Below are positions 23,271 to 33,410 of a DNA stretch of 64,000 bases, piece after piece. The stretch lies in assembly GCF_010078235.1 (NCBI RefSeq), contig NZ_JAABOS010000007.1:121126-185125 (forward strand), read 5' to 3'. A program made the translations under genes and the position numbers. Source of the DNA: Cognatundibacterium crateris (GTDB lineage Bacteria; Pseudomonadota; Gammaproteobacteria; Burkholderiales; Burkholderiaceae_D). The notes under the pieces are model-generated. The model did no database searches and was not told the DNA's origin. It worked only from the letters and a program-made list of their open reading frames with translations. Position 1 is the stretch's first letter; every line of letters starts with the position of its first letter.

Positions 23271-23475
23271 GCGTAACAGATGAAGGCCATTGCGCCGCAC
23301 AAGTCATTTCGGCTTACGGTCCTCACCTGGTTTTCATGCGCCTTTCAAGAGCAAAGTAAGCCAGAAGGCGCATAGGTATTGGGGCTTTGATTTTTTTCTT
23401 TGCGTTTCACCTGAAATTTAACACGGTAGGGCGTCAGGAAAACGGCTTTTGTAGGACGCATCACGATGCGTCGTA
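23271..23475. repeat. Dispersed repeat, copy A
   Basis: About 205 bp matching copies near 27861, 30655 and 33121. The core at 23336-23372 is an imperfect inverted repeat (ATGCGCCTT ... AAGGCGCAT) around AGAGCAAAGTAAGCCAG. It ends in the palindrome GACGCATCACGATGCGTC near 23455-23472. No reading frame is conserved among copies. Confidence 0.8.
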
Positions 23476-23661
23476 TGGACTCGCTTTTTCATCAAGGCTG
23501 ATCTAAACGCAGTCTGCCAAATCCTTAGGATAAACGCCTGCTTCCAATAATTGATGTGCGTTCCAACAGGAGCAACCTTCGACCCGAATGAAGAAGCCAT
23601 ATTGGATCGGGCGCTATGCATAACGGTCAAATGCGGCGCATCGCGATGCGCCCTACACGCG

Positions 23662-25428
23662 CTATTTCGTAGCTGGCACTTCAGGCCGCCAACAGCCTAA
23701 CCAATATTCCCAGGTTTTTACATTTTTCCCATTCGTAGAAACTTTGGCTCGACGTTTTAAGTCATCTATGAACTCTAGTTTCATCTGCGTTCCTGGGAGA
23801 TTTTTTAGATAGTGTTGCGCTTGACTTTGCGAGCTAAGCTTCGCCTCATGAACTGCGGCATCAAGAATTTGTTCGCGAAGACAGACTTCGCTTGGACCAC
23901 AGCAGGAATTTTCCTTACCGGCATTTCTATTCTCCAGACCATCAAACGCTTCTTGCGTCGCTTGTTTCACATCACCTTTGGTTTCGACACTGATCAAGTA
24001 ACGAATCACAGGTAACATACGTTTATCTTTAATCTGCCTTAAGGCATAAGCAGAATACGCATCGCGATTTTTCATCCGTAGATAGCCCAACAAAAATTTT
24101 GCTTCATCTTCGGCTCGCATTAAATCTGCCATCCAGACTGGCCAATGCGTATCTTCAGCGATTTTCCCATTCGCCCATGCATCGAATAAGGCGCTGGCTG
24201 ATCGTTTTCTGCCGCCCTTAGACCAAGGGTAAGCCAAGCGATAACGCAGGTTTGGCATCCAAATCGCATCGAAGGGCCCAAAGAGTTGCCCACCTTCGAT
24301 CAAATTAGCGTACAAGGAGAAAAACTCCAATTGGACAGCACCATTTTTTTCTTTTTCAAACAGCAAAAGTGCACGTTGAAAAAAAAGATCTGGGTACTGT
24401 GCCGCCATGGAGCGCAAGATAAATGAGCGTCTTAATGGATCACTATCGCTCTGATACATACGCACCCAATGCTCATAGGGTACTTTGAATCGAAAAGCGA
24501 GTGATGCGTAGCCATACATATATTTTCGCCACAAGGCGTTGTCCGCAGTTTCATAGAGATTCATCAAAAAGTCTCGTTCAGCGGCAATTTGCTCTGCTGG
24601 CGCATCTTCACCGACAAAACCAAGTAGCATCGTTGGGAGAATCGAAGAAGTATCTTTCTCTTTGGCTTGCGCTAACATCGTATTGCGAAATCGTTTGGTA
24701 ATCGCGACCTCACTCGCATATTGTTTAGGCTCGATAAAGTTGGGGACGACCAAGCCCAAAGCATCACGCGCCATGATTGTGTCATCGGAATTGTTAGCGC
24801 GGCTCTTAATCAATTCACGAGCCTTGGCTGTTCCTATACTGCGCAATGCCATGATCACAAAATGCCGCGTAAAATCATTCGTACTCTGCAAATGCTTTTC
24901 CAATAATTGCACCGTACTGTCGGCTTGATTTGACATGACAAGAGCATAAATATGCAGCATGGCGAGGTCATCCGCATGCATGCCTTGTGGCAGGTCTATT
25001 GGTAAATCCTTGATGGGATAAGCTTCCGTTGTTCCTGTTAAGAATTCCTCAAGGAAGGCTGCGCTGGTGCTGGTAGCACCACTGGGAAGTTGCAGTGCTT
25101 GCCTGGCCGCCACAGCAAAACTAAAACCAACATAAGATAAATTTTTGGGTAGATTCTCAAACGCGATATCTGCACTCGTCAAGCCAACTGGTCGCCCTAA
25201 GAGGGTGCTGTAAAATAATCGCGCTTCCAGAGACAAATGTTGATTCGCATCGCGGTCTTCAGGATAACCCAAGGCATCGATTGTTTTTGCGCTTTCACCT
25301 GCCATGTACGAGGGTAAGAGCTCCGCCATGTCATATTTCATGTCTGCCCAAATATCGCTAGTACTCAGGGCTGCCAGAGCTAAAATCAAAAAACCACTTA
25401 ACTGGATAATACGGGTCGTTTTTTTCAT
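23662..25428 (-). CDS. Exported helical-repeat protein of unknown function
   Basis: A 588-aa protein that I do not recognise. It begins with a Sec-type signal peptide (MKKTTRIIQLSGFLILALAA, cleavage near residue 28). The rest is rich in short helix-helix segments such as the LLEKHLQSTNDFTRHFVIMALRSIG type stretch at about 180-205, resembling HEAT-like repeats of a scaffold, but no named domain is certain. A CCGPSEVC cysteine cluster lies near residue 515. It overlaps the upstream gene by four bases (ATGA), so the two exported proteins are made together. Confidence 0.7.
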   Translation of the reverse strand: MKKTTRIIQLSGFLILALAALSTSDIWADMKYDMAELLPSYMAGESAKTIDALGYPEDRDANQHLSLEARLFYSTLLGRPVGLTSADIAFENLPKNLSYVGFSFAVAARQALQLPSGATSTSAAFLEEFLTGTTEAYPIKDLPIDLPQGMHADDLAMLHIYALVMSNQADSTVQLLEKHLQSTNDFTRHFVIMALRSIGTAKARELIKSRANNSDDTIMARDALGLVVPNFIEPKQYASEVAITKRFRNTMLAQAKEKDTSSILPTMLLGFVGEDAPAEQIAAERDFLMNLYETADNALWRKYMYGYASLAFRFKVPYEHWVRMYQSDSDPLRRSFILRSMAAQYPDLFFQRALLLFEKEKNGAVQLEFFSLYANLIEGGQLFGPFDAIWMPNLRYRLAYPWSKGGRKRSASALFDAWANGKIAEDTHWPVWMADLMRAEDEAKFLLGYLRMKNRDAYSAYALRQIKDKRMLPVIRYLISVETKGDVKQATQEAFDGLENRNAGKENSCCGPSEVCLREQILDAAVHEAKLSSQSQAQHYLKNLPGTQMKLEFIDDLKRRAKVSTNGKNVKTWEYWLGCWRPEVPATK

Positions 25429-26303
25429 TCCTCACCTTTTTTGCCCATGCCAGCTTGCGCTGCAGAAGCACTCGTCGCCTCACAGGCAATACGACCATCG
25501 ATCGTCATTTGTAAGGTGATATTCTGGGTGCCAACGGTTTCGATAGGCTCAACTCTTTGCGGAACCGACTGCTTGATAAGTAATAGATGTAGCGTGTTGT
25601 GATAGGCTTCCGCGGTCACGATGCTACCGGTCTGTGCATAGGCAGAGACTAGTTTCATCTTAGCGATGCAACTTTCAGGAGCAAGATTTGGACAAATTGT
25701 TGGCGCCTCTTTGCGCATACAACGCGAAACTGCGGCAGCTAATTGCTCATCTTGTTTCGCAATACGATAAAAACTGATGTTCTTATACTCTCGCGAAGAA
25801 TAGACATCTATACCAGCATCTTTTCCATAGCGATCTAAGCCCAATTTGAAGAGTTTTTCGATCAACTCGTCAAGATGGGCGTTGATCGGAAATTCGGCCT
25901 CAATGCGTTGCACCTGAATGTAGGGCATTTTCATGCTGCCATCATTCGCCTTTTCAGGATTGCGCGCCGCCCTTAAGCGTTCTTTTTCGATTAAGATGCC
26001 ACCTTTACTTTCGACATAGGCGCGTATCGCAGACATTTGCTTTTCGAGCTGCGTGCTTCCATCCTTAGGACTAATACTTTCCGCACTGAGTCCGCCACTA
26101 ATGACGACTCGGTTCGGTTGTAACTGCTCGTCACAACTGATGTTAAACCCAGAGTATGCTTCCTCCGGTATACCCGGTTTTGAAATGGGCCCAGAGGTAA
26201 TTTGCAAGCCTTGTGCAGTTTGCGTCTTTTCCGCAAAGCTGTAAGAAGTGCATAGGCCAGCAAGCATGGCTAACGCAAAAAAACGAAAGACGATTTTTTT
26301 CAT
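25425..26303 (-). CDS. Exported protein, possibly SIMPL-like, unknown function
   Basis: A 292-aa protein with a clear signal peptide (MKKIVFRFFALAMLAGLCTS, cleavage about residue 24). Residues 65-170 show beta-strand/helix patterns (RVVISGGLSAES; QMSAIRAYVESKGG; LDELIEKLFKLGL) that faintly recall periplasmic SIMPL/DUF541 domains; this is a weak resemblance. At least five cysteines follow in the mature protein, which suggests disulfides. It is first in an operon with the gene at 23662. The ATG follows AGAAAG by five bases. Confidence 0.68.
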   Translation of the reverse strand: MKKIVFRFFALAMLAGLCTSYSFAEKTQTAQGLQITSGPISKPGIPEEAYSGFNISCDEQLQPNRVVISGGLSAESISPKDGSTQLEKQMSAIRAYVESKGGILIEKERLRAARNPEKANDGSMKMPYIQVQRIEAEFPINAHLDELIEKLFKLGLDRYGKDAGIDVYSSREYKNISFYRIAKQDEQLAAAVSRCMRKEAPTICPNLAPESCIAKMKLVSAYAQTGSIVTAEAYHNTLHLLLIKQSVPQRVEPIETVGTQNITLQMTIDGRIACEATSASAAQAGMGKKGEE

Positions 26304-26450
26304 TTGAACTTTCTACAAATACGCTCAGCTAAAAATTTGCATGGGAATGTGAGTTTTCCACGACATGAATTTTTCTAAATTTCGCAAAAAAAACACAGTC
26401 CATTGACACTTTGAGGTTCCCTCGATATTTCGTCTGCCATCAGATGAATT

Positions 26451-32965: not shown

Positions 32966-33120
32966 GGCTGCAATGTAGCAAAGGAGCTAATGCATTGCAA
33001 GATCAGGACTTACGCAAGGTATGCGTGTCGCTTACAACAGATAATAAAACAAACACAGAATTTCTTGCTGCTGTCATCACCCAGCCATACCACGATGCTA
33101 ATTCATTCCACCTTGTGGCC

Positions 33121-33290
33121 TATATTTCATGCGCCCTACAGACACAAAGTAAGCCAGCAGGCGCATCAGTATTGGGTGTTTGATTTACTGCTTTGAGTTT
33201 GTGCTGAATGTACACGGTAAGGTGCAATCCATTCGTAAATCCATAATGCCTAAGCTTTGGTAGGGTGCATCACGATGCGCCGCATGCGGG
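33121..33290. repeat. Dispersed repeat, copy D
   Basis: About 170 bp. The core ATGCGCCCTAC ... GGCGCAT (33129-33166) encloses AAAGTAAGCCAGCA, followed by ATTGGGTGTTTGATTTACTG and ACACGGTAAGGTG as in copy C. It ends with GGGTGCATCACGATGCGCC. It is more diverged at its 5' side than copies A and C. Confidence 0.72.
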
Positions 33291-33348
33291 AATGAGTCAT
33301 CTGGCAGATGCTTACTTTTGTTTTTTTATTTATCCTGCAAACAAAAAA

Positions 33349-33410
33349 ACGCAGCGCGTTAAGGCGCAATAAATGAACCCCATTGGAACCTACAAATCAT
33401 TCCGACTAAA
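33349..33410. repeat. Degenerate 5' segment of the dispersed repeat
   Basis: AAGGCGCAATAAATGAACCCCATTGG and the next 20 bases align with the 5' part of copies A to C (GGCGCAACAGATGAAGGCCATTG ... CAAGTCATT), but without the palindromic core. Confidence 0.45.

Follow-up and report, generated by a model that had tools for sequence, protein, structure and literature searches.

The accessory block at 23-34 kb of the window (the 64,000-nt stretch of DNA analysed here) raises two linked questions: what are the ~200-bp repeats that recur between its genes, and what have they to do with the genes they separate? The answer we favour, with moderate confidence, is that they are REP/BIME-type mosaics, perhaps RAYT-seeded, that now provide direct-repeat homology for the exchange of gene modules. 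The window was compared with the whole of its own genome (G000, 4.3 Mb) and with two sister species (G004 and G017).

A first-pass annotation had described at least four copies plus two partial ones, lying between genes, and this description stands. A repeat search in the window yields four copies that align in register along 103 nt:

23332-23434, plus strand: in-register stretch of copy A, 74% against the reference
27945-28047, plus strand: in-register stretch of copy B, 75% against the reference
30739-30841, plus strand: in-register stretch of copy C, the reference
33125-33227, plus strand: in-register stretch of copy D, 85% against the reference

In the same search 23270-23418 matches 30677-30825 at 83% over 149 nt, and pairwise BLAST of the copies gives E values from 7e-16 to 6e-53. 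All copies share one orientation and sit between the main predicted genes; a 107-aa ORF from a mechanical ORF list (32860-33183) spans copy D and is taken as spurious. Each copy is a partly decayed mosaic: a REP-like 5′ part is joined to a 73-nt hairpin and, except in copy B, to a REP palindrome headed by GTAG or GCAG:

23270..23485, plus strand: repeat copy A, with REP-like 5′ part, hairpin core (23321-23393) and GTAG-type REP palindrome (23451-23472)
27862..28034, plus strand: repeat copy B, with hairpin core (27934-28006), lacking the GTAG REP
28036..28116, plus strand: partial copy B2, the 5′ part alone (BLAST and repeat search)
30648..30890, plus strand: repeat copy C, with hairpin core (30728-30800) and REP palindrome (30857-30878)
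33114..33286, plus strand: repeat copy D, with hairpin core (33114-33186; folding no better than shuffles) and REP palindrome (33260-33281)
33360..33408, plus strand: partial REP-like copy (BLAST), within the last module
23635..23652, no strand assigned: separate REP palindrome GGCGCATCGCGATGCGCC, adjoining the 3′ end of a 588-aa ORF

The imperfect inverted-repeat core earlier ascribed to the copies is evident in B and C, which fold far beyond shuffles (z of -5.2 and -6.1), but has decayed in A and D, since their folds do not stand out (-1.4 and 0.0). Strong folds and 3′ location agree with the suggestion of a structured RNA; however, an Rfam scan of window and block returned only two tRNAs and the SRP RNA above cut-off, and the block was without any match. 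The repeats had also been thought confined to the block, and a lack of further genomic copies had been named as an argument against a repeat family. For the ~200-bp unit such copies are indeed lacking, its 10 matches in G000 all falling at the block locus except three strand matches at two short palindromes on contig C1. Its parts do recur elsewhere: there are more hairpins, at C5:43377, C7:6942 and C23:439630, and the REP palindrome, exact or with one mismatch, occurs at 21 places in G000, three of them in the block (reversed-pattern control, 0).

With up to two substitutions allowed, this terminal palindrome is present in A (23451), C (30857) and D (33260), but missing from B; its head is GTAG at 23451 and 33260, and GCAG at 30857. 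The same palindrome type flanks the genome's own RAYT gene (C1:280018-280458), at C1:279973 and 280550. The 3′ palindrome is a GTAG-superfamily REP of the resident RAYT's type. The 5′ part appears REP-like by eye, resembling the flanks of a RAYT in another genus genome, G015; a strict pattern of it had no match in 1.54 Mb (four stretches) or the window. Among eight genus loci with a short 5′-part match, a family hairpin lies within 20 nt at one, at 170 nt at another, and within 200 nt at none of the other six.

The hairpin belongs to a dispersed family of its own, so that the earlier suggestion of a REP-like family holds in part, for the 3′ palindrome and for this core. A de novo scan, which served just to find the family and whose matches are not all members, gave 24 hairpins in G013, 18 in G034, 8 in G000, and none in the window or in shuffles. 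Family hairpins occur in 17 of 43 Undibacterium genomes, with high copy number in some species, and in a 145-genome sample of the taxonomic family they are found in this genus alone (1 of 44 genera); against 14 scattered taxa the hairpin model reaches only 14-26 bits, mostly through the core. Undibacterium is a freshwater genus, and the hairpin family is found mainly there. RAYT-family matches occur in 42 of the 43 genomes, hairpin-bearing or not, so presence by itself does not link RAYT to the hairpin. The two do meet in places: beside a RAYT gene at G013 C1:3478978, GTAG REPs recognised by eye alternate with three hairpins of the family (E 2e-4 or better), while hairpin-like arms adjoining a second RAYT gene (L212) reach only E 0.06. 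In a limited pattern scan of 53 sequences, two RAYT genes (L153, L211) have a hairpin within 300 nt and five more (L104, L194, L213, L214, L215) have one 0.9-2.1 kb away, but none has a hairpin or half-hairpin as its two ends.

These hairpins might instead be primarily transcription terminators or 3′-end mRNA stabilisers, kept for their function, the four block copies having arisen through duplication of 3′ regions. We think this unlikely, though it is the strongest of the rivals. It was weighed on 56 hairpins from 1.2 Mb of three genomes (57 places minus one 44-nt partial match, L100:11428; three G015 rows have cores identical to G013 rows), all 56 outside genes as called by a crude gene caller. 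One hairpin and its identical G015 counterpart sit within an uncalled TadE-like ORF. Location speaks for such a role: of the 56, counted with the three duplicate G015 rows, 26 have convergent neighbours, an arrangement found in 79 of 523 intergenic spaces (p 3e-8), and 18 of 22 in tandem spaces are closer to the stop codon. So do the flanks, with a T tract on the right in 34 of 54 copies (background 31%) and an A tract on the left in 33 (27%), two copies without anchors being left out. The arms point the same way, pairing better within their own copy than when permuted (9.02 versus 8.39 of 12; 0 of 5000 permutations; n=51 once two unanchored copies and three duplicates are set aside). The effect is weaker within single genomes (G013, 61/5000; G034, 164/5000), and there is no excess at positions 7-14 or 15-26 or in the inner arms. 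Covariation in 14 model sequences is mixed: paired cells (82.0% versus 79.2% shuffled; 0/500) and score (0.168 versus 0.125; 2/500) exceed shuffles, whereas two-sided pair changes (4 versus 3.6) and further pair types (13 versus 12.5) do not. The arms differ among species and remain largely complementary.

Against a terminator, the usual intrinsic terminator stem is far shorter than that of the hairpin. A T run at 12-22 nt, just past the 12-nt outer stem, occurs in only 8 of 54 copies, the T tract of the 34 copies lying further out, so the family does not have the form of an intrinsic terminator, a GC stem followed directly by a U tract, and window copies A and D have no fold beyond shuffles. 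Separate terminator-like sites do not discriminate either (7 of 56 hairpins versus 45 of 456 controls). Moreover, REPs in general are placed likewise, at 3′ ends and between convergent or unidirectional genes (PMC3733652). A MITE, also proposed earlier, finds no backing, direct repeats of 4-7 nt in the flanks of the 56 hairpins being no commoner than in permuted flanks, although uncertain element ends weaken this comparison.

What the repeats do at the block is best seen from the genes between them. In G000 these comprise:

23662..26303, minus strand: module A-B, with a 588-aa ORF (HEAT_2 match right at the Pfam threshold) and a 292-aa ORF (SIMPL-like, under the threshold)
26410..27610 (limits approximate), minus strand: insertion remnant, presumably of IS3 type, with ORFs in separate frames and domains rve, rve_2 and HTH_21
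27696..27738 (end inferred from alignment), minus strand: relic of the first codons of a 350-aa gene that G004 and G017 carry
28423..30507, plus strand: module B-C, a 694-aa ORF with a Peptidase_M66 domain
30953..32965, minus strand: module C-D, a 670-aa ORF with DUF3592 and ankyrin repeats
33524..33874, minus strand: 116-aa ORF without Pfam match, lying past D and before the RND operon

Modules A-B and B-C were not found in the G004 and G017 stretches compared, C-D is shared with G004 and was not found in the G017 stretch, and the DNA around the 116-aa ORF, from D to the RND operon, is missing in both. From surE-qor to p69-RND the order is A-350aa-D in G017, A-350aa-B-ANK670-D in G004 and A-HEAT588-SIMPL-IS3-B-M66-C-ANK670-D-h116 in G000; the conserved genes on either side are shared by the three sister species, while the cassettes they enclose differ. 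In these alignments the joints fall at parts of the repeats: the G017/G004 alignment ends at L032:10553, 68 nt before the hairpin core of G017 copy D, and restarts 5 nt into that core, at L032:10626 (= L031:11776), and G004 DNA past B2 matches the right flank of G000 copy A. With fast intergenic divergence, some joints at repeats may reflect lost alignable sequence, and the independent events are few because only three sister species have these loci. Of the 24 further genus genomes that have qor, 16 were examined; the surE-qor pair is kept in all 16, and an RND gene (at least 45% identity) was found in none within the 13-15 kb examined past it. At L271 (G015) and L273 (G013), family hairpins lie about 6.6-11.7 kb from qor, and short matches to the unit's 5′ part lie ~20 nt from three of these qor-region hairpins. 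The filled/empty comparison suggested earlier revealed something that the first-pass annotation had not proposed, whole modules exchanged at repeats; for single hairpins, G013 versus G015 gave no clean insertion point, most intergenic regions being too diverged or without an adjacent ortholog pair.

The mechanism we favour would run as follows. The repeats would be composite palindromic elements of the REP/BIME kind, now decayed (REP-like 5′ part, Undibacterium hairpin and, except in B, REP palindrome), that were seeded perhaps by RAYT-type (HUH tyrosine) transposition and persist at the block as direct repeats between accessory genes. Direct copies could then recombine, within the chromosome or with incoming DNA of relatives, so that modules are added, removed or exchanged, and the repeats would act as repeat-delimited docking points at two hot-spots of G000. 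The three-species comparison shows the exchange pattern; homologous recombination is the agent we infer, with RAYT movement as the alternative.

The second hot-spot is an array at C34:113.5-121.6 kb, where direct ~380-nt units bound Fic, glyoxalase, S41 and HINT genes. Here, too, cassettes differ between the same conserved genes: contents are different in G004 and G017, between ackA and an acyltransferase-ligase gene in G000 and G004, with only the right-hand side available in G017, whose contig starts inside. By sequence comparison, this array seems to behave like the first, its gene contents swapped at repeats. In a PADLOC search of ten proteins, four second-array proteins being left out, the Fic protein resembles candidate family PDC-S04 (E 3e-75), the 670-aa protein of the block resembles PDC-M72A through its ankyrin part (4e-21), one HEAT match stands at 0.004, and seven proteins have no match.

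A RAYT which itself excises or inserts the repeat-bounded modules is an improbable agent in our estimate. In its favour, G000 carries a RAYT of matching REP type, and the unit of the second array, a REP...inverted REP pair whose interior is 72% identical to the 3′ part of that RAYT gene, resembles a deleted REP-RAYT-REP element. At a site where two full units enclose genes in G000, G004 retains a single 45-nt REP piece, which is not what recombination between those two units would leave. Yet the RAYT-family matches of G000 (C1 and C12) lie outside both arrays, and the module-bounding repeats are partly decayed and direct rather than inverted. A bolder variant, which we hold to be just as improbable, is a RAYT-based cassette system in Undibacterium: composite REP units, some like deleted REP-RAYT-REP elements, would be laid down as direct repeats separating accessory genes, and whole modules would be shuttled in and out by the domesticated transposase or through recombination at the palindromes it recognises, as an integron counterpart without integron integrase. 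A true integron-like array with attC-like sites is very improbable, for although structured repeats in one orientation separate the genes, these run in both directions, no integron integrase scored above cut-off in G000 or G004 (G017 has two, elsewhere), and attC core motifs as generally known were not seen by eye.

REPs and RAYTs are widespread, but to our knowledge little has been documented on how they affect gene content. In G000, accessory blocks at two loci lie between REP mosaics and differ by reshuffling from those of sister species, making it testable in freshwater bacteria whether such mosaics steer gene gain and loss. In addition, untagged, lineage-restricted hairpins whose arms vary among species yet stay largely complementary may help to separate selection for folding from copying.

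Among the matches listed, the open-access literature yielded no account of such repeats in Undibacterium or Oxalobacteraceae, and a narrow search (title and start of abstract) found none on REP sequences bordering gene cassettes. The closest relatives are REP/BIME sequences with GTAG-superfamily RAYTs, which share GTAG-headed palindromes flanking a RAYT gene, palindrome mosaics, and intergenic placement with a 3′ and convergent bias. The central hairpin is likewise dispersed, extragenic and present in many copies, but it is long, confined to a single genus of the family sample, and untagged: each of GTAG and CGTC, or its complement, lies within ~30 nt of the 56 hairpins 1-4 times per side (~6 expected), and a GTAG-REP-like site near 1 of 56 (2 of 456 control sites). 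The unit also differs in that it joins the hairpin to palindromes of two types. The long hairpin of two inverted halves, its many copies in some genomes and the paired REPs of the second-array unit resemble REPINs, in which REP doublets form hairpins, but the hairpin halves were not found as ends of the RAYT genes examined. TIRYTs, in which long inverted repeats flank a RAYT-like gene, are described together with repeat families unrelated to GTAG REPs and linked to RAYT relatives (PMC3733652); the hairpin family is similar in the latter respect, but none of the 53 sequences scanned has a RAYT gene ending in the hairpin on both sides. Finally, the dRS3/RS repeats, NIME and minimal mobile elements of Neisseria, whose exchange is attributed to homologous recombination (PMC3898611), similarly place short palindromic repeat arrays beside genes and differing whole-gene cassettes between conserved ones; the Undibacterium repeats differ in sequence and genus, and separate several modules in series.

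Repeat search and BLAST bore out the first-pass annotation's count of at least four repeat copies plus two partial ones in the window, which lies within contig C40 of the Cognatundibacterium crateris genome (G000; 4.31 Mb in 42 contigs). All of them are intergenic with respect to the main genes of a block in which both gene orientations are present:

21310-23149, surE-qor, left border of the block
23270-23485, + strand, repeat copy A
27862-28034, + strand, repeat copy B
28036-28116, + strand, partial copy B2
30648-30890, + strand, repeat copy C
33114-33286, + strand, repeat copy D
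33360-33408, + strand, partial copy
34484-37914, small YgaP-like ORF with RND transporter, right border of the block

A 51-nt repeat (78% identity) that is distinct from the main unit flanks copy B (27643-27693 and 28146-28196), and the ankyrin ORF contains an internal 42-nt tandem duplication (31653-31736; 88%).

The repeat unit is a composite of a 5′ part, a 73-nt hairpin in the middle and a 3′ palindrome, and the window repeats are mosaics whose REP part is of the resident RAYT (REP-associated tyrosine transposase) type. The hairpin of copies A, C and D is followed by a palindrome that fits GTAGGGCGCATCRCGATGCGCC with at most two substitutions, and the same palindrome type brackets the RAYT gene of this genome (C1:280018-280458; NF047646, E 2.8e-59). 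At ≤1 mismatch, the palindrome occurs at 21 places in G000 (reversed control: 0), namely six on C1, four of which are within about 1 kb of the RAYT gene, one on C12, eleven on C34 and three on C40 (window 23635, 30861 and 33264). Read in reverse, the 5′ part by eye resembles a REP with arms ATTGCGCC and GCACC, and similar sequence, again judged by eye, lies on both sides of the RAYT gene of the Undibacterium genome G015 (L153). A strict pattern for the 5′ part gave 0 matches in 1.54 Mb and in the window.

Two arrays are polymorphic for gene modules, i.e. the gene blocks between repeats, and the joints fall at parts of the repeats. At the window locus, the sister species G004 and G017 have the same block borders (94-99.6% protein identity) and different contents, in the following orders:

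G017: A, 350-aa gene, D
G004: A, 350-aa homolog, B and B2, 670-aa ankyrin gene, D
G000: A, HEAT protein (588 aa), SIMPL-like protein (292 aa), IS3 remnant, relic of the 350-aa gene, B and B2, M66 peptidase, C, ankyrin gene, D, 116-aa ORF

The difference between G017 and G004 is the 2.8-kb B-ankyrin block; their alignment ends at L032:10553 and restarts at L032:10626 (L031:11776), within the hairpin core of copy D (10621-10693). Positions 9327-9569 of G004, after B2, are 81% identical to G000 23420-23660, the sequence that flanks copy A on its right, and D is followed by 1,149 nt in G000 (33228-34377) versus 80 in G004. While surE-qor is kept in 16 other genomes of the genus, RND was not found after it within the 13-15 kb examined; in G013 and G015, two of the 16, hairpins of the family lie at a distance of 6.6-11.7 kb from qor. 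G017 also encodes two integron integrases over the curated cut-off (C1:4419-5363 and C10:2145-3095).

The second array, a REP cluster on C34 of G000 (113.5-121.6 kb; L282 5534-13562), comprises a ~380-nt unit in five direct copies, of which one is cut short, plus another partial copy; relative to the reference copy, DNA identity is 89-95%. The unit has a REP at its start and an inverted REP at its end, and over positions 54-224 it matches the 3′ terminus of the G000 RAYT gene plus the beginning of the REP that follows (123/172 nt), so that the unit looks like a REP-RAYT-REP deletion derivative. The units bound genes for a 131-aa protein, Fic and glyoxalase, a 101/170-aa pair, peptidase S41, a PT-HINT protein and an acyltransferase; the Fic-domain gene matches the PADLOC candidate family PDC-S04 (E 3e-75). 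In the G004 counterpart a full unit is accompanied by a 45-nt piece; in G017, whose contig begins there, the stretch covered contains a full unit and a cut one, and the genes in between are different ones. Just the 45-nt REP piece separates glyoxalase from S41 in G004, versus unit, genes and unit in G000. The ~380-nt unit was present in three of ten genomes searched, the three sisters, and no family hairpin was found in the C34 array.

A covariance model built on 14 hairpin copies gave matches with E ≤ 0.01 in 17 of the 43 genus genomes, with 75-110 matches each in G013, G032, G034, G035 and G015 (both strands counted, and no more than 114 scored candidates per genome). In a family sample of 145 genomes, the hairpin family is limited to one of 44 genera: all five genomes that match at E 0.001 (34 candidates per genome) are Undibacterium. 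The exact core pattern retrieved 45 stretches across the genome collection, of which 29 are labelled Undibacterium. The others are one stretch that scores 55 bits, a contig of Betaproteobacteria at 35 bits, and 14 single matches in scattered taxa (14-26 bits). G000 itself has seven hairpin places, four in the window plus C5:43377, C7:6942 and C23:439630, and none in 400 kb of C1. None of the papers listed from the open-access literature describes repeats of this kind from Undibacterium.

All 56 hairpin places from 1.2 Mb of G013, G034 and G015 (three G015 rows being identical to G013 rows) lie outside genes by simple hexamer gene calling. They occupy 26 convergent, 22 tandem and 8 divergent spaces versus 79, 323 and 121 of 523 spaces, a convergent enrichment (p 3e-8), and in tandem spaces the stop codon is the closer end for 18 of 22. 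One copy, shared with G015, lies within a TadE-like ORF missed by the gene caller, which suggests insertion. Neither a tag excess nor a target-site duplication signal was found at the 56 places. Judged by eye, the arms often extend to a total of about 110-120 nt. They pair better within a copy (9.02 of 12 pairs) than when dealt among copies (8.39 of 12; 0 of 5000), mostly through six pairs adjoining the core; covariation counts on the 14 model sequences were mixed. Five same-orientation hairpins stand among mixed genes within 7.4 kb of G013 (C1:1142870-1150226; L098 2870-10226), one inside a TadE-like ORF. At an apparently orthologous hairpin (G013 L091:19676, G015 L183:16573), the arms are conserved and the loop by eye appears inverted. 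Tracts of 97-100% identity in a 66-93% background (G013 C1:1.0-1.4 Mb, G015 C1:1.74-2.14 Mb) suggest recent exchange between both species.

Of the 43 genus genomes, 42 contain RAYT-family matches, above cut-off in 30, whether or not hairpins are present, and RAYT presence alone is therefore uninformative. Beside the RAYT gene at C1:3478978 of G013, three hairpins of the family (E 4e-6 to 2e-4) are interleaved with GTAG REPs recognised by eye; at G032 C18:173877, hairpin-like arms interleaved with REPs score just E 0.06. The 5′ part of the unit has short matches at eight genus loci; a family hairpin lay within 20 nt of one, at 170 nt from another and nowhere within 200 nt of the remaining six. 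Parts of the mosaic thus co-occur elsewhere, but not as a rule. A GTAG REP was near 1 of the 56 hairpins versus 2 of 456 controls, i.e. there is no general neighbourhood. Beside the family hairpins L273:3909 and L273:4928 (G013) and L271:7948 (G015), short matches to the 5′ part of the window unit occur at a distance of about 20 nt.

RAYT activity may have seeded the repeats, with homologous recombination as the probable agent of module exchange. The term BIME is used as in PMC2817692. The published systems that come closest are TIRYT repeats and GTAG REPs associated with RAYTs (PMC3733652), REPINs (PMC3116915), and the NIMEs and minimal mobile elements of Neisseria (PMC3898611).
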